Source of the DNA: Ktedonobacter sp. 13_1_20CM_4_53_11 | Lineage (GTDB): Bacteria > Chloroflexota > Ktedonobacteria > Ktedonobacterales > Ktedonobacteraceae | DNA: 8,033 nucleotides | Reading direction: 5' to 3' | NCBI GenBank assembly: GCA_001919995.1 | Contig: MNIY01000029.1 | Location: 1-8,033, forward strand | Part shown: in pieces, positions 1,318-8,033 of the stretch | How positions within the stretch are numbered: position 1 is the first letter of the stretch | Layout: every line of letters begins with the position of its first letter | The notes under the pieces: model-generated | Seen by the model: only the letters and a program-made list of their open reading frames with translations | Told to the model about the DNA's origin: nothing | Databases searched by the model: none | Position numbers and translations under genes: made by a program

Positions 1318-1333
1318 GAGGTGATCCCGGTTG
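1318..1333 (+). promoter_or_regulatory. Strong ribosome binding site fixing a TTG start
   Basis: GAGGTGAT (1318-1325) is a full eight-base match to the usual anti-Shine-Dalgarno sequence. It stands 5 nt before the TTG at 1331. It decides the otherwise ambiguous start of the histidine kinase. Confidence 0.65.
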
Positions 1334-2464
1334 TTTGATAGCAGCACCATCGATTACCAGCATTTCTTCAGTGAACTGCTCGAGGCCGCGCCGTGGCCGG
1401 TAATCATCATTGATCGCAACCAGTCCATCTGTTTCTACAATCAACTTTCCGTCCAGCTCCTCGAGGCGGCTGAACCGATGCAGGGCCTCAGATTGGACCA
1501 GGTTGTCCATGACCAGGCTATCCTGCAAGTTGTGCAGGATAGCATCAGCGCTGATCAACCTCGCAAAGGTGAGCAGACCATAGATGCTTCTGGTACGGCA
1601 TGGAAGGTCACGTTGACTCCGCTTGAACACGCGCAGAGGAATATGCAGGCCGAGCTGGAGGGAGTGGCGGGCCACGAAGAAGCGTCACACTATACGTATT
1701 TTGTTGTAGCTATTGAGGATTTAACGGAACTGCGGCGGCTGGAACGCGTGCGCCGTGACTTCATCGCGAACATATCGCATGAACTGCGCACCCCGCTCGC
1801 CTCGGTTCGCTTACTGGCGGAGACTCTGGAAGAGGCTATCGATACCGACCGAGACAAAGCGCAAATGTTCCTCGAGAAGATTGAAAACGAGGTTCAACAT
1901 TTGAACGGGCTGGTCTCCGAGCTACTGGAACTCTCGCGCATCGAATCCGGCCTGGTACCGATGGTTATCGAGCCTGTACAGGCAGAGCACCTGGTACGGG
2001 AGGTTATGGCGCGCATGCTGCCGCAGGCGCAGCGGCATCGCGTTATGCTGCACACGGAAATAAAAGAAGGGAACGTGCTGGTGGCGGCTGACAGCAAACA
2101 GATTGCGCGTGTGCTCGTCAATCTTATACATAACGCCATCAAATACACTCCTTCGGGCGGGACGGTGACAATTGGTACGGCGCTGCAGGCGGGTGGACAG
2201 GTACAACGTTTTTTTGTGCGAGATACAGGCGTAGGTATCCGGCCAGAAGAGCTGCCGCGCATTTTTGAACGATTTTATAAAGCCGATCGTGCCCGCTCGA
2301 AAACTGATTTCATTGGTCCAGGTGGTGGGGGAAGTGGTCTGGGTCTGGCTATTGCCCGGCACGTGGTTGAAGCGCATGGAGGGCGCATTACAGCGGAAAG
2401 TCGCGTTGGATATGGCAGCACTTTCACTTTCACGCTGCCGGTCGCCCAGCGCGGCAATACGTAA
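1331..2464 (+). CDS. Soluble PAS-domain sensor histidine kinase (PhoR-like core)
   Basis: This 377-residue kinase autophosphorylates on histidine from ATP and passes the phosphoryl group to a response-regulator aspartate. A PAS-like sensor domain covers about residues 10-130. HisKA follows, with the H box FIANISHELRTPL (phospho-acceptor His150), then HATPase_c. All catalytic boxes are intact: N box NLIHNAIKY (264-272), G1 DTGVGI (298-303), F-box region FERFYKADR (312-320) and G2 GGSGLGLAI (333-341). There is no signal peptide or membrane segment, so the protein is probably cytosolic and senses an internal or diffusible cue through the PAS domain. Translation starts at TTG behind a near-ideal ribosome binding site. 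It follows the acetyltransferase by 16 nt. No DNA-binding response regulator is adjacent; the nearest receivers are the CheY-like protein and the CheA-like REC domain downstream. Confidence 0.93.
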   Translation: MFDSSTIDYQHFFSELLEAAPWPVIIIDRNQSICFYNQLSVQLLEAAEPMQGLRLDQVVHDQAILQVVQDSISADQPRKGEQTIDASGTAWKVTLTPLEHAQRNMQAELEGVAGHEEASHYTYFVVAIEDLTELRRLERVRRDFIANISHELRTPLASVRLLAETLEEAIDTDRDKAQMFLEKIENEVQHLNGLVSELLELSRIESGLVPMVIEPVQAEHLVREVMARMLPQAQRHRVMLHTEIKEGNVLVAADSKQIARVLVNLIHNAIKYTPSGGTVTIGTALQAGGQVQRFFVRDTGVGIRPEELPRIFERFYKADRARSKTDFIGPGGGGSGLGLAIARHVVEAHGGRITAESRVGYGSTFTFTLPVAQRGNT

Positions 2465-2654: not shown

Positions 2655-3494
2655 ATGACGCCAGAATTTGAGCAGCGTTTGCAAACTACCAGCAGGGAAC
2701 AACTTATTCGACTGCTAGGGGAACTCACCGTACGCCATCCTCTGTTACAGGCAGAGATCACGAGCATGCTGGGAAAACTCGCGCAAGAGCACGAGCCAGC
2801 ACAAGCTGAGGAGGCAACTGATGATACGGGAGAGGTATCAGAAGATTGGGATTTTACCGGTGAAACGCAGGTAACGCCGCACTCAGCGGCCGCCCAACAA
2901 GCCGCGCTGCCGACCGATAGTGAGGATCGTCACCAGCACGTTGGGGAGTTTGCCGGCAGATTGAGCCAGGTAGAATCACGACAGGCGCTTTTTGAAGTTT
3001 TGCAAGACCTGGTAGAAGACGCGATTTCGTACATCGGACAGAATGACGACCAGATGGCGCTTGATCTCTTTGCTCTTTTAATTGATGAACGACTGCTGGA
3101 AAGCCAGCCAGAGACGGTCCCATTGTTCGATGAGATGATTGACGCGAGCATGTATTCCTTAGAGGCTTTGTTGGAGGAAATAAGTAGCCGCACGATGTTT
3201 GACACGGATGCCGGGGCGCTTTCACCACTGCTCTCCCCCGAGGTGCGCCATCGCTGGCTGCAACGGCTCTTCGCGCTGTGGCTCAAACGCCTCGACGCAC
3301 ACCGCGTTGAGGAGGATTTGCCAGGGTTAATCCTGAATGTGGCATGGAACGAAGATGCGCTGCTCTTAAGAAGTCTTGCGCAGGCAGAACTGCAGAGACA
3401 GCCAGATACTTCGCATTCCAATATCGTTGATTTTGGACGCCAGTACCGCACGAAAGCCCTGGAAAAATTCTTAAAAGATGTATCTCGTACGTAA
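2655..3494 (+). CDS. Hypothetical acidic, mainly helical protein, 279 aa
   Basis: I do not recognise a family. Residues 13-45 look like an amphipathic helical pair (REQLIRLLGELTVRHPLL). They are followed by an acidic, low-complexity linker at about 46-95, and then by a helix-rich domain at about 98-275 with many Leu, Glu and Ala residues (ALFEVLQDLVEDAISYI at 111-127, WLQRLFALWLKRLDAH at 201-216). There is no signal peptide, membrane segment or evident catalytic motif. The composition suggests a protein-interaction role. GAAGGA at 2644-2649 supports the ATG at 2655. Coding base composition matches the neighbours. It lies between the repeat element and the chemosensory operon and is separated from the latter by a 122-bp AT-rich gap with a likely promoter, so shared function is only possible, not shown. 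Confidence 0.8.
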   Translation: MTPEFEQRLQTTSREQLIRLLGELTVRHPLLQAEITSMLGKLAQEHEPAQAEEATDDTGEVSEDWDFTGETQVTPHSAAAQQAALPTDSEDRHQHVGEFAGRLSQVESRQALFEVLQDLVEDAISYIGQNDDQMALDLFALLIDERLLESQPETVPLFDEMIDASMYSLEALLEEISSRTMFDTDAGALSPLLSPEVRHRWLQRLFALWLKRLDAHRVEEDLPGLILNVAWNEDALLLRSLAQAELQRQPDTSHSNIVDFGRQYRTKALEKFLKDVSRT

Positions 3495-3616: not shown

Positions 3617-4009
3617 ATGAACAAACTGGTAATGATCGTTGACGACTCACCCACCGTCCGGAAGATCATTGAGACCAGCCTGAGACGAGAGGGGTTTGAA
3701 TCTGTCAGTTACTCCGACGGCATTGAAGCTTTGCGGGCAATTACCGAACAACGCATGAGACGCATACCTGACCTGGTAATCCTTGATATTGGTCTTCCCA
3801 AGATGGATGGCTACGAGTTCGCCCGGCGCCTGAAAACAAAACCCCAATTCAATAATACGGTCATCGTTATGCTCACCAGTCGCGATAGAGTGATTGACCG
3901 CCTTAAAGGCCGCCTGGCAGGTGCAAAAGATTATATTACCAAGCCATTCAAAACGCAAGAGATTATTTCCGTCCTGCACTCGCACCTGGGGGTTCCAACC
4001 TTAATGTAA
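3617..4009 (+). CDS. Single-domain response regulator, CheY/PilG-like
   Basis: The 130-residue protein is one receiver domain with no output domain. It should be a cytosolic phospho-acceptor that acts by protein contact, as CheY or PilG/PilH do. All receiver residues are present: acidic pair Asp9-Asp10, phospho-acceptor Asp57 in LVILDIGLPKMDGYEF, Thr87-Ser88 in MLTSR, and Lys109 in ITKPF. Length is typical of the family. AGGAAGG shortly before the ATG supports the start. It is the first gene of a three-gene unit; the CheW-like gene starts 42 nt downstream. The N-terminus (IVDDSPTVRKIIETSL) resembles the receivers of type IV pilus chemosensory systems more than flagellar CheY, but this is a weak basis for naming the output. 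Confidence 0.92.
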   Translation: MNKLVMIVDDSPTVRKIIETSLRREGFESVSYSDGIEALRAITEQRMRRIPDLVILDIGLPKMDGYEFARRLKTKPQFNNTVIVMLTSRDRVIDRLKGRLAGAKDYITKPFKTQEIISVLHSHLGVPTLM

Positions 4010-4051: not shown

Positions 4052-4714
4052 ATGAACGAACATCCCAAGGCCAGTGCTCTACCTTTAGACATTACGCAGC
4101 TGCAAAATCTTGAGCAGCTACGTGATGATGAATTTTGGGATTTCGCACGCGCGCTGGCCCGTCAGGTTCCCGCGGCTGCACAGTCTGAAGATTATTTAGA
4201 ATGTGCCCTCGGTACAGGAACGTGTCTCATTCCTCTCACAATGCTGAACGAAGTTGTGTTACCTCCTCATCGACTCACGCTGCTGCCAGCCACCCCTGAA
4301 TGGATGCCAGGTATCGTGGCCTGGCGGGGTGAAGCTATCGCGGTGATCGATCTCACCCTCTATCTCTCCGGTCACCCTGTAGATCTGTCGAACGCTATTT
4401 TGCTCATTGTCAACCACGCAAACATACCAATTGGCCTGCTGGTACCCTCTATCGGGCAAACAACACCTATTCAGCAAGGGCCGCAGGATACCCTCTCCAC
4501 AGACGACATCGAAGGCCCTACGGCACCGGCAGACTTTTCAGCTCTGGCGGCCCTGGCGGCCCTCGCAGCTCCTAAAGCGCCAGCCACTACACCGCATATG
4601 CCCTCACGGACAGCAGGCGTGAAAGGAATGCAACAAGGAGCACTCGTTTTAGATGTCCCAATATTGCTCGCCGATGTTGTCCAACGCATAGAAACGGCGG
4701 CTGCCAATGAATGA
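4052..4714 (+). CDS. CheW-like coupling protein with Ala-rich insert
   Basis: CheW proteins link chemoreceptors to CheA in the signalling array. A CheW domain is recognisable at about residues 48-135: YLECALGTGTCLIPLTMLNEVV, then the hallmark GIVAWRGEAIAVIDL at 87-101, then the hydrophobic strand AILLIV and the IGLLV segment. The final strand and helix appear at about 196-214 (ALVLDVPILLADVVQRI). Between them, residues 140-195 form a Pro/Ala-rich insertion with three LAA repeats. A 47-residue N-terminal extension precedes the domain, so at 220 aa it is longer than the usual 150-170. The ATG at 4052 is the only usable early start: an in-frame TAG lies at 4025-4027 and no alternative initiator falls between. 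The ribosome binding site is weak. Its end overlaps the CheA-like start by 8 nt, which suggests translational coupling. It most resembles the PilI/ChpC-type CheW paralogues. Confidence 0.85.
   Translation: MNEHPKASALPLDITQLQNLEQLRDDEFWDFARALARQVPAAAQSEDYLECALGTGTCLIPLTMLNEVVLPPHRLTLLPATPEWMPGIVAWRGEAIAVIDLTLYLSGHPVDLSNAILLIVNHANIPIGLLVPSIGQTTPIQQGPQDTLSTDDIEGPTAPADFSALAALAALAAPKAPATTPHMPSRTAGVKGMQQGALVLDVPILLADVVQRIETAAANE
4544..4570 (+). repeat. Three tandem 9-bp coding repeats in the CheW-like gene
   Basis: CTGGCGGCC occurs twice in direct tandem (4544-4561), followed by a diverged third unit CTCGCAGCT (4562-4570). In frame these encode LAA three times (residues 165-173). The array lies in the flexible insert of the CheW-like protein, where unit loss or gain would keep the reading frame. 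Confidence 0.7.
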
Positions 4715-7127
4715 TATATTCAACCAGGATGAACTATCCGCCGAAGACCTGGCAATACTCCAGGCCTTTGATGAGATGGACATGGGGAGTTGGGAAGAGG
4801 AGGGCGCTCAAAAGGAAACATCCACACAAGCTCCTGGTGAAGAGGAAGCAAGCGAAAAATTCCTTACGCCAGAAGAGATGCTCGCCCTTTTCGTTGGCGA
4901 AGCTGACGAAGATATTACGACGATACGACGAACATTACAGCAACTTGAGCCGGATGATCACTTAGATGCTGCTCACTTACAGGTAATCCAGCGCGCTGCC
5001 CATAAGCTGAAAGGGACTTCTGGCGCCATCGGTTGCATGGCCATGTCGACTATTGCCCGCCACCTGGAAGACCTGGTCAAGCAGATAATCAACGGGACGA
5101 TTGTGCCTTTTATCGGGTTAAATGCACTTGTGCAAACGGCGCACGCTTTAGAGAAGACGCTGATCAGTTTTGTCACGAATGGTGAAGAAAGCAGTAGTTT
5201 GCTTGCTGAACTTGAGACAGAGTATAAAGCGCTCAATATAGATATAGCGGCCGGGTCTGCAACGAAACCAGGCTATGCGCAACACGTGGAAGAAGAGCAA
5301 GCAAAGGAATCACCTGCGCGCGTACCCTTCAAATCTGTAGAAGAGGCCAGCCCGGTACTCAAACCTGCGCAAGAGCATCAACCAGCGCCATTTGTGCGCG
5401 TGGATGTCCATCGCTTCGAGCAACTCGTACAACATTCCGAGCGACTGGCGGAACTCAGTAACCCATTGGAGAATGCGCAGGCAGAGGTTGAAAAAGCGCT
5501 GCAGGAATTACACGTGGCCGAGGCGCGCTTGCGGCACATGGAGGGCGTGTTAGCTACGCAACTCGCCACAAAACGTTTTGATGCGATGGCAGCACAATCG
5601 GCAAGCGATGAAAGGCCTATATCCTCACTTGTTGCGCGCATCCTTGACGAGTCTGCACAACGCACCGGCAAGTTGTATCAACATAAGAGCAAAGTGCAGC
5701 CCCCAAAGCCTGCTGATTCGTTGCAATGGGATGATCTGGAGATTGATCGTTTTACAGAAAGCGACTTTCTAGTACAATCACTGAGTGAGGCCGTCGCCGA
5801 TGTCACGACCGCCTCTTCACAATTACGGACAGCCATTGCCCAGCTCAACTGCATTACGCGGCAGCACATTGACCAGGCTACCAATGTACGGAACGACACA
5901 CTCTTGCTCAGGCTCGCGCCGATCAGTACGCTGCTGGTAGGTATCGAGCGCGCGATAATGATGAGTCCATTAGCACAACAGCAGCGAGTGCTCTTCGAGG
6001 TGGAGGGTGCCGCGACGGAAATCGACCAGGATATCCTGGAAGAGCTCAAACACCCGCTGTTACAGCTCGTACGCACCTGTACCGCCCATAGGTCGACTGC
6101 GCCAGAAGAGGTAGATGGAGAAGAGAGCGGAAATACAGTGAGCCGCACCTGGCTGCATGCGGGTGCAATTGGCAACGAAGTCACCATCGAGGTAGGCTTC
6201 TCGATGGTGGTAGGTGGAGGTGCCATGGACGAGGTACAGGAGGCTATCCGCCGTCTGAACGGAACGGTCGTGGCGCGGCGGAATAGCCTGGGAGGTATCA
6301 GCATCCACCTGCGTCTCCCTCGCTCACAAGGAGCGCTACAGGGCTTTCTCGTCAAAACGGGAAGCCATCATGTTGTGGTGCCATTTTCGCAGGTGCAGCG
6401 CATAGACGATGGCAAACAGACGTTGCCAGAGCATCTCTACACGCTGCATAGTCTGCTCGGCCTCCCAGCGGAGCACTCTGCTGTTGAAGGCGTTCGACCA
6501 GCGCTCATACTTGCAACTGAAGCGCATCCCATGGCGGTACAGGTCGATGACATCCTGGGAGAGGTCAAGCTGGTGGTGAAGCCGCTTGCTCCTCACTTAC
6601 GGCGGCCGGGCATTGCCGGAGTGGTGATCGATGCTATGAGCAATATCCTGCTTGTCGTTGATTTACCTGGGCTCATAAACCACTATGAAATGCAGGAAAG
6701 CACCATTAAAATCGCAGCGATACGGAAGAGCGACAAACAGGTCCAGTATCCCGCGCAAACCCGGCAATCCATCTTGATCGCGGACGATTCTGTGTATATC
6801 CGAAAATCTTTGCGCCAGACGCTCACCTACGCGGGGTACCAGGTCAGAGAGGCCGATGACGGCATGAAAACGCTTGAAAGCCTGCTGGACAATCCACCAC
6901 ACGCGCTTTTGCTGGATATAGAGATGCCAAACTTGAGTGGATATGACGTGCTCAGTATGATGCGCGTCCACCCGGAGCTCGCCAGGGTGAAAACGATCAT
7001 GTTGACTTCACGATCTTCTGAGAAGCACCAGGAAAAAGCACGAGAACTCGGTGCCCAGGTTTACCTCACCAAACCCTGTCCGCAAGATTTGTTGCTGGAG
7101 ACGTTGCGTTCGCTACTCAGGAGCTGA
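4707..7127 (+). CDS. CheA-like Hpt-CheW-REC protein with a degenerate ATP-binding domain
   Basis: This 806-residue protein has the layout of hybrid CheA/ChpA kinases. An Hpt domain spans about 52-175, with phospho-acceptor His99 in AAHKLKGTSGAIG. An extended dimerisation region follows at about 230-420, with a coiled-coil-like start. The ATPase-type domain is at about 425-540, a CheW-like domain at about 543-660, and a C-terminal receiver at about 687-803 with Asp693-Asp694, phospho-acceptor Asp737 (LLLDIEMP), Thr767-Ser768 and Lys789. The ATPase part is damaged. Where CheA has HLVRN..DHG it reads QLVRTCTAHR (453-462), so the N-box Asn and the Asp are lost. IEV (494-496) runs straight into GFS and VVGGGAMDEV, so the G1 DDGxGI box and most of the ATP lid are absent, with no frame break. 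It is probably catalytically dead, yet phosphotransfer-competent through Hpt and REC. Its start overlaps the CheW-like gene by 8 nt. It ends the operon at a strong terminator. Confidence 0.9.
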   Translation: MNDIFNQDELSAEDLAILQAFDEMDMGSWEEEGAQKETSTQAPGEEEASEKFLTPEEMLALFVGEADEDITTIRRTLQQLEPDDHLDAAHLQVIQRAAHKLKGTSGAIGCMAMSTIARHLEDLVKQIINGTIVPFIGLNALVQTAHALEKTLISFVTNGEESSSLLAELETEYKALNIDIAAGSATKPGYAQHVEEEQAKESPARVPFKSVEEASPVLKPAQEHQPAPFVRVDVHRFEQLVQHSERLAELSNPLENAQAEVEKALQELHVAEARLRHMEGVLATQLATKRFDAMAAQSASDERPISSLVARILDESAQRTGKLYQHKSKVQPPKPADSLQWDDLEIDRFTESDFLVQSLSEAVADVTTASSQLRTAIAQLNCITRQHIDQATNVRNDTLLLRLAPISTLLVGIERAIMMSPLAQQQRVLFEVEGAATEIDQDILEELKHPLLQLVRTCTAHRSTAPEEVDGEESGNTVSRTWLHAGAIGNEVTIEVGFSMVVGGGAMDEVQEAIRRLNGTVVARRNSLGGISIHLRLPRSQGALQGFLVKTGSHHVVVPFSQVQRIDDGKQTLPEHLYTLHSLLGLPAEHSAVEGVRPALILATEAHPMAVQVDDILGEVKLVVKPLAPHLRRPGIAGVVIDAMSNILLVVDLPGLINHYEMQESTIKIAAIRKSDKQVQYPAQTRQSILIADDSVYIRKSLRQTLTYAGYQVREADDGMKTLESLLDNPPHALLLDIEMPNLSGYDVLSMMRVHPELARVKTIMLTSRSSEKHQEKARELGAQVYLTKPCPQDLLLETLRSLLRS

Positions 7128-7196: not shown

Positions 7197-8033
7197 CTAG
7201 CCTTGATACGCTAAAGGTGCGGCCTCGATCGCGCCTGTCTCCACCATAATCGCGCGCAATTGCCTGGCATCGATGGTTTCATACAGTCGCAGCGCCTTTG
7301 CAATACGGTCGAGCGTTGTGCGATGCTCCGACAGGAGGCTAACGGCTCGATTATAGGCCCATTTCACGATGCGATCGACCTCTTCATCAATGAGCGTGGC
7401 CGTCTTCTCGCTGTATTCGCGGGAATTGTTTGCCAGGGCGGTACCGGCGAACGGGTCATCACGATCGCTAAAGGAGACGGCACCGAGCCTTTCGCTCATA
7501 CCCCAGCGGGCAACCATCTGGCGCGCAATAGCTGTGACACGCTGGAGATCGTTCTCCGCTCCCGTCGTAATGTGCCCTATGGCCACCTCCTCGGCGGCCC
7601 GGCCACCAAGAGCGGTTACCAGCTGCGCCTCGAGGTAATCCTTCGAGTAGTTGTAGCGATCGTCCAACGGTGTATACTGCGTAACGCCAAGGGCCTGTCC
7701 GCGAGGCACAATCGTGACCTTGGAGACCGGGTCGACGTTTTCTTGCAGCAGTCCCGTCAGCGCATGACCACCTTCGTGGTACGCAACAACATTCAAATCT
7801 TCTTCAGAGAGAACGAGCGGACGCTCCGCGCCGATAAGGATCTTGTCAAGGGCCTCATCGAAACAGTTCTGCGTAACCGCCTCCAGGTTACGGCGGGCAG
7901 CCAGCAGTGCGGCTTCGTTGACCAGGTTCGCCAGGTCGGCGCCAACCATACCTGGAGTGGCACGGGCGATGGTAATGAGGTCGACATCCTTCGCAAGAGG
8001 TACGTCACGAGAGTGAATCTTGAGAATTGCCAG
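7197..8033 (-). CDS. ftsH: ATP-dependent zinc metalloprotease FtsH, C-terminal part (5' end outside window)
   Basis: FtsH is a membrane-anchored AAA+ protease that unfolds and degrades misfolded membrane proteins and short-lived regulators. Only the last 278 codons are present. The frame is open to the window edge, so the gene continues past 8033. The segment just inside the edge, LAILKIHSRDVPLAKDVDL followed by TPG.VGADLANLVNEAALLAAR, is the end of the AAA+ module. The M41 protease domain follows with the zinc motif HEGGH (plus strand about 7768-7782; HEAGH is more usual, but all HExxH residues are kept), IVPRG, LGGRAAEEV, and TTGAENDLQRVT carrying the third zinc ligand Asp. The N-terminal membrane helices and Walker motifs lie outside the window. 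The protein ends at TAG (7197-7199) shortly after the protease domain, with a short C-terminal tail. It is convergent with the chemosensory operon and probably unrelated to it. Confidence 0.96.
   Translation of the reverse strand: MAILKIHSRDVPLAKDVDLITIARATPGMVGADLANLVNEAALLAARRNLEAVTQNCFDEALDKILIGAERPLVLSEEDLNVVAYHEGGHALTGLLQENVDPVSKVTIVPRGQALGVTQYTPLDDRYNYSKDYLEAQLVTALGGRAAEEVAIGHITTGAENDLQRVTAIARQMVARWGMSERLGAVSFSDRDDPFAGTALANNSREYSEKTATLIDEEVDRIVKWAYNRAVSLLSEHRTTLDRIAKALRLYETIDARQLRAIMVETGAIEAAPLAYQG

Follow-up and report, generated by a model that had tools for sequence, protein, structure and literature searches.

Gene content of the locus

The window, i.e., the whole stretch of 8,033 nucleotides that was analyzed, comes from a soil bacterium and carries a chemosensory cluster in which the CheA-like protein, here called pCheA, is preceded by a CheW-like and a CheY-like gene. 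The genes are as follows.

580-1314, + strand: GNAT acetyltransferase, the first of six + strand genes in the window
1331-2464, + strand: histidine kinase (Pfam HisKA and HATPase_c, weak PAS matches)
2655-3494, + strand: 279-aa protein without a Pfam family (best E value 0.18, below the cut-off)
3617-4009, + strand: CheY/PilG-like single receiver, 130 aa (Pfam Response_reg, 2.4e-27)
4052-4714, + strand: CheW-like adaptor, 220 aa (Pfam CheW, 8.5e-14)
4707-7127, + strand: pCheA, predicted kinase-dead CheA/ChpA-type protein, 806 aa (Hpt, P3-like region, lidless P4, CheW-like P5, receiver)
7197-8033, strand opposite to the cluster: C-terminal part of an FtsH-type protease (Peptidase_M41)

The CheW-like ORF and the start of pCheA overlap by 8 bases. 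This arrangement recurs in the 20 pCheA loci that we compared: the CheW-like gene adjoins pCheA in 20/20, the CheY-like receiver gene is present in 20/20, and the histidine kinase gene adjoins the cluster in 16/20. Each of these loci has one CheA-like ORF, with no partner CheA in the same operon. The closest loci found belong to Chloroflexota metagenome assemblies, one (L001) 99% identical and another (L002, labelled Ktedonobacteraceae) 90% identical.

Several minor features of the cluster and of related genomes were also recorded. The gene of the 279-aa protein, located between those of the histidine kinase and CheY, occurs in 11 of the 20 loci. The Pfam match of the CheW-like adaptor is limited to positions 2-97 of the 138-position profile, and an Ala/Pro-rich stretch lies ahead of its C-terminal end. 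A second CheY match, located outside the cluster and with an E value of 1e-38 or better, was found in 15 of 27 pCheA genomes (e.g., on contig C454 of genome G001, 66% identical). On contig C388 of the same metagenome assembly, a second histidine kinase (76% identical) is accompanied by a CheW and by the beginning of a pCheA (63%); this is either a duplicate set or one from a relative mixed into the assembly.

Architecture of pCheA and conservation of its phosphotransfer residues

The 806-residue frame of pCheA is open from end to end and gives Pfam matches to Response_reg (9.5e-24), Hpt (5.9e-14), and CheW (9.5e-9). Its segments are arranged in the following order.

4875-5186, + strand: Hpt, residues 57-160 (Pfam match 57-124)
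5382-5891, + strand: P3-like (dimerization) region, residues 226-395, from profile alignment to intact CheAs
5979-6326, + strand: remnant P4, residues 425-540, with the junction motif IEVGFS at 494-499
6342-6716, + strand: CheW-like P5, residues 546-670 (Pfam 577-659; aligned to solved CheA P5)
6768-7106, + strand: receiver, residues 688-800 (Pfam Response_reg), with Asp737 and Lys789

Our protein search gave 462 matches, 120 of which were listed. Of 121 proteins taken further, the 112 longer than 740 aa, among them that of the window itself, were aligned as full-length members. The phospho-acceptor His99 (codon 5001-5003) is kept in 112/112, as are each of Asp737, Lys789, and the Asp693-Asp694 pair of the receiver. 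Glu121 of the Hpt domain is kept in 110/112 and aligns with the Glu of most intact CheA Hpt domains compared. Its counterpart in E. coli CheA, Glu67, assists phosphorylation by P4.

In a Pfam scan of 38 members, Hpt, CheW, and Response_reg were each matched in 38/38 at E values up to 1. HATPase_c was matched in the window's pCheA by none of the Pfam hits at E values up to 1, and it was absent among the families matched by at least 2 of the 38 members (25 of 57 families listed). The core domains of CheA are Hpt, H-kinase_dim, HATPase_c, and CheW, according to the available part of PMC10782961. pCheA thus has the Hpt domain with its phospho-His and the CheW-like P5 and lacks a HATPase_c domain with ATP-binding boxes. 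The P3-like segment, LEIDRFTE...LSEAVADV, is alignable to the intact CheAs of the class, and Pfam H-kinase_dim gave no match there. Common ancestry with intact CheA along the full length of the protein is supported by an hhalign profile alignment to the intact group (786 columns, probability 100), by the trees described below, and by alignment to solved chains.

The ATP-binding site of P4 is missing throughout the family

The N-box region of pCheA reads PLLQLVRTCTAHRS, with Thr457 at the position of the N-box Asn, and the lid/G2 region reads IEVGFSMVVGGGAMDEVQ, in which there is no DxGxG, the lid is gone, and GGGAMDE replaces GRGxGMD. Altogether, P4 has lost some 50 residues of its ATP lid, all three of the boxes G1, F, and G2, and the Asn of the N box. 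When the profile of 38 relatives was aligned to E. coli CheA (6s1k), profile positions 392-500 fell on chain residues 309-418 and positions 510-668 on 474-648, and at the lid gap 9 profile positions face 55 chain residues. In profile-profile comparison, the P4 segment spans 159 columns, versus 209 and 207 in two intact groups.

We applied identical G1 and G2 patterns to the family and to two sets of intact proteins, i.e., 15 CheAs from related clusters and 21 CheAs from clusters containing a methyl-accepting protein gene (MCP-linked). G1 was found in 0/112 family members, in 15/15 related-cluster CheAs, and in 21/21 MCP-linked CheAs, and a loose G2 pattern gave the same counts (0/112, 15/15, and 21/21); a stricter G2 pattern fails on one intact protein, L054. 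Asn457 occurs in 7/112 family members versus 36/36 intact proteins, and His461, which the window retains, in 12/112 versus 36/36. The two residues occur together in 1/112, and Asn457 is combined with His461-Gly462 in 0/112. The deletion junction is itself conserved, with Ser499 in 112/112 and the G-F-S motif in 98/112 sequences and 25/25 genomes. Judged on sequence, pCheA is very probably a kinase-dead and conserved protein.

These comparisons bear out most of the preliminary description of this DNA, which had been made from its letters. The replaced N-box Asn, the missing DxGxG, the IEV directly followed by GFS, and the GGGAMDE in place of G2 are all read in the sequence, the loss of G1 and G2 holds across the family, and the alignment to CheA P4 domains that it had proposed displays the same gap. 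Its account of an open frame that keeps His99, the CheW-like domain, Asp737, and Lys789 also agrees with our data. One detail has to be given up: Ala460 had been taken as a further sign of loss, but it is not diagnostic because intact related-cluster proteins have V, A, or other residues at this position, and the conserved partner of the Asn is His461.

Distribution of the family

The class that we surveyed (47 genomes) is probably Ktedonobacteria, judged by the names on related proteins. The pCheA family occurs in 27/47 of these genomes. In two of the 27, the contig ends before P4, and every one of the 25 in which P4 can be seen is lidless. When 400 genomes were drawn evenly from the phylum, class members included, 28 matched at an E value of 1e-50, namely, the same 27 pCheA genomes plus G003, in whose protein P4 is intact. 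Thus, no family member was found outside the class in this draw at that threshold.

The preliminary description had suggested a search for orthologues with the same gap and had named close relatives with an intact domain as evidence against it. The close relatives are lidless in 112/112 cases, which rules out an isolated deletion, and intact ones sit in other genomes of the class. That pCheA is a pseudogene or an artefact of sequencing, assembly, or gene calling has a practically negligible probability and is without any support: the same state is seen in 112 full-length proteins, also in genomes of one or a few large contigs, the frames are open, and dN/dS is low.

Selection on the remnant P4

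We obtained simple counting estimates of dN/dS on related pairs. Thirteen pairs from three lineages had usable divergence; they are nonindependent, as L073 and L027 represent a single gene and L001 hardly differs from the window. The dN/dS of P4 in these pairs was 0.02 to 0.14. It was lower than that of P5 (0.14 to 0.29) in 13/13 pairs, and that of the receiver was mostly lower still. The intact P4 of MCP-linked CheAs gave 0.03 to 0.14 in six pairs. As the values of the dead P4 are close to those of the intact one, the domain is not drifting, and by these estimates it is under strong purifying selection. The invariance of His99, Asp737, and Lys789 together with the low dN/dS of P4 points to selection to keep the transfer and docking parts, in line with the earlier proposal that catalysis was dropped while phosphotransfer and docking were kept.

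Such constraint could also mean that P4 still binds nucleotide or catalyzes through an unrecognized arrangement, as the remnant is constrained about as strongly as an intact P4 and carries a conserved motif at the deletion point. We regard this as highly improbable given that the family lacks G1, G2, and the lid and, in nearly every member, also the N-box Asn. Another idea, which we favor less than its opposite, is that the lidless P4 was remodelled throughout the lineage into a noncatalytic module that links two chemosensory systems otherwise separate from each other, both driven by a single catalytic CheA in a split kinase spanning unlinked clusters; the conserved G-F-S junction and a constraint about equal to that of active P4 may point to such remodelling.

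Origin of the pCheA clade

Of the 20 class genomes that lack pCheA, 15 supplied a CheA locus for comparison. L058 and L063 are cut by contig ends. The trees comprised 18 pCheA proteins, 21 MCP-linked CheAs, and 15 related-cluster CheAs. Within the last set, A_L061 is by its neighbors part of an MCP-linked cluster, and the trees place it apart from the other 14. With L061 excluded, the related-cluster CheAs are 944 to 1285 aa long, one being cut to 851, and their clusters typically contain a DUF4388 protein, CheY-like receivers, CheW, and CheA. HATPase_c was found in 8/8 related-cluster CheAs scanned by Pfam.

The pCheA proteins form a single clade with an ultrafast bootstrap of 100 in trees built with and without P4. 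In the trees without P4, this clade groups with the related-cluster CheAs (100, L061 left out), apart from the MCP-linked CheAs, which rules out that pCheA is a duplicate of the MCP-linked CheA. The three trees disagree on the exact sister group of the pCheA clade, whose branch is long. With intact-P4 relatives in matching clusters and a single dead clade, one old, ancestral loss of the P4 site would be the simplest reading. One clade (100) also unites the MCP-linked CheAs from the 13 pCheA genomes included in the tree, and therefore the pCheA carriers look like one lineage.

A catalytic-type CheA elsewhere in the genome

Genomes G001 and G002 each have one other CheA, with P3 present, in a cluster of two CheY-like receivers, CheW, and an MCP. 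In both genomes it lies on another contig than pCheA, and in single-contig records it is far away. In G002, this protein is 1521 aa long and comprises Hpt, H-kinase_dim, HATPase_c, CheW, and a receiver. Its G001 counterpart (L006, 4533-8898) is read as two overlapping frames of 930 and 650 aa versus one in G002, owing to either an assembly error or a real break.

A search with the P4-P5 part of the G002 protein gave exactly one catalytic-type CheA match in 25/27 pCheA genomes and none in the remaining two, G021 and G030. The ATP boxes are intact in the MCP-linked CheAs of 13/13 pCheA genomes checked, and Pfam finds HATPase_c in the catalytic CheA of a fourteenth, G001. A chemosensory cluster with no working CheA kinase had been noted as unusual in the preliminary description; this stands for the cluster itself and mostly not for the cell, and the reading of a genome without any CheA kinase was rejected on the single catalytic-type match in 25/27 carriers. 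The pCheA lineage thus seems to operate both of its CheW-based clusters with a single catalytic CheA. In the 20 class genomes that lack pCheA, the same search gave two or three catalytic-type matches in 16 cases and a single one in 4. Co-occurrence of a catalytic CheA with pCheA says little on partnership, because 45/47 class genomes have a match.

In two genomes without pCheA, G031 (L102, 8863-12626) and G032 (L110, 6530-7837), CheY adjoins FtsH, the CheW and pCheA genes between them are missing, and no pCheA was found elsewhere in either genome. Each has two CheW-domain matches in all, versus four in most pCheA genomes. Over P4-P5, their catalytic CheA shares 78% identity with the G002 protein, versus at most 58% for other genomes without pCheA, so G031 and G032 are probably members of the pCheA lineage that underwent a natural loss of the CheW-pCheA pair. 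That the two genes are missing together fits a CheW-docked unit, and the persistence of CheY indicates that it has another phosphate source or role.

One such source could be the histidine kinase encoded at 1331-2464, which might phosphorylate the stand-alone receiver, with phosphate being exchanged between that receiver and the Hpt and receiver domains of pCheA in a rewired multistep relay. Its presence in 16 of the 20 loci and its position still beside CheY in G031, a genome that lacks this CheW and pCheA, are in favor of this view. Yet the kinase lies about 58 to 61 kb from pCheA in G040, G041, G042, and G045 and on a different contig in G043 and G044, and its homologue in G011 (L104, 8753-15980) is near ABC ATPase and PhoU genes. 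From these neighbors, the kinase may be the phosphate-sensing PhoR of the lineage, an identity that weakens the relay without removing it; overall, we consider it improbable.

A proposed split-kinase mechanism

E. coli CheA phosphorylates across its dimer. We propose, as the most likely reading, that pCheA is the acceptor half of a split kinase. The sequences show that the ATP lid, the boxes G1, F, and G2, and the Asn of the N box disappeared from an ancestral CheA in a CheY-CheW-CheA cluster. Purifying selection, again at the sequence level, preserved what remained of P4 along with the Hpt, receiver, and CheW-docking domains and an alignable dimerization region. pCheA, docked via CheW/P5 or hetero-dimerized via P3, would be phosphorylated on His99 in trans by the genome's one catalytic CheA, which comes from the separate MCP-linked cluster. 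The phosphoryl group would then move from His99 to the neighboring stand-alone CheY and to pCheA's own receiver, which may serve as a sink or for feedback. On this mechanism as a whole, with its trans step and phosphate flow, we are evenly divided: carriers G021 and G030 gave no catalytic-type CheA in our search, G031 and G032 keep CheY without pCheA, the candidate partner is unlinked, Pfam H-kinase_dim misses the P3 region, and the histidine kinase could be the donor.

pCheA might otherwise act as a scaffold and damper, filling CheA places in the array via CheW/P5 and draining phosphate from CheY via its Hpt and receiver domains, thereby lowering the output of the active system. We think this rather unlikely, and equally so its corollary that pCheA need not be a required donor. 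The retention of P5, Hpt, and receiver in all 38 members scanned is consistent with such a role, and so are the two genomes without CheW and pCheA that retain CheY and a catalytic-type CheA. A precedent exists in CheA3 of Rhodobacter sphaeroides, described as a phosphatase for CheY6-P in the available part of PMC3591291. A pure scaffold, however, leaves the full invariance of His99, Asp737, and Lys789 unexplained, which a phosphate sink would explain.

Comparison with known systems

The split-kinase proposal has a parallel in the same CheA3 of Rhodobacter (Cereibacter) sphaeroides, whose P4 is degenerate, whose Hpt and CheW domains persist, and whose phosphorylation is carried out by CheA4 (available parts of PMC10782961 and PMC3591291). 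Like pCheA, CheA3 is derived from CheA and has a functional Hpt, a CheW domain, and a remnant of P4; in the available text, this remnant lacks helices and the ATP/Mg residues, and the protein has no autokinase activity and is phosphorylated in trans. A degenerate P4 with Hpt and P5 kept, the combination that characterizes an acceptor half, is likewise what we find in pCheA. Unlike pCheA, whose cluster shows no partner kinase, CheA3 shares an operon with CheA4; 794 residues separate its Hpt from its P5, the protein has additional Hpt and P2 domains that are degenerate, and the available text describes no receiver for it, whereas pCheA keeps one. Since the organisms belong to different phyla, the P4 loss of pCheA was presumably independent of that of CheA3.

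ChpA/PilL, a CheA of the class linked to type IV pili (Tfp), has the same order as pCheA, with Hpt, an extended P3, P4, CheW, and receiver, and both have CheY- and CheW-like neighbors. Among the matches listed, many pCheA relatives are labelled "chemosensory pili system protein ChpA" by jgi. ChpA has a HATPase_c domain and autokinase activity, the site of which is lost in pCheA. RcsD is a membrane protein that is not known to derive from CheA and, unlike pCheA, is without CheW. The two are alike as Hpt proteins with an inactive HATPase domain, RcsD conveying the signal of RcsC to RcsB (available part of PMC7418988). Pseudomonas ChpA has multiple Hpt domains (available part of PMC10782961), whereas pCheA has one strong Hpt match. 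DivL of Caulobacter is, like pCheA, a noncatalytic histidine kinase kept as a signalling part; in the available text of PMC4211667, its phospho-His is replaced by Tyr and ATP binding is weak, whereas in pCheA the His is kept and the ATP site is lost.

Pseudo-histidine kinases such as DivL and RcsD were thus already known, as was, in the sources as available, one degenerate CheA in Rhodobacteraceae, with orthologs in twenty other genomes (PMC10782961). Our search of the open-licence literature found, among the matches listed, no title or abstract on a pCheA-like degenerate CheA in Ktedonobacteria. Our data document such a protein beyond Rhodobacteraceae: a conserved CheA pseudokinase from another phylum, whose candidate partner is unlinked. 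The intact relatives provide a before-and-after comparison, the carriers include named species, relatives being listed for Ktedonosporobacter rubrisoli, Thermogemmatispora carboxidivorans, and Reticulibacter mediterranei, and pCheA makes the contribution of P4 to chemosensory systems testable apart from ATP. Finally, among the matches listed, relatives of pCheA are named histidine kinases in several databases (jgi, ncbi, and uniref), a label that predicts the wrong activity.
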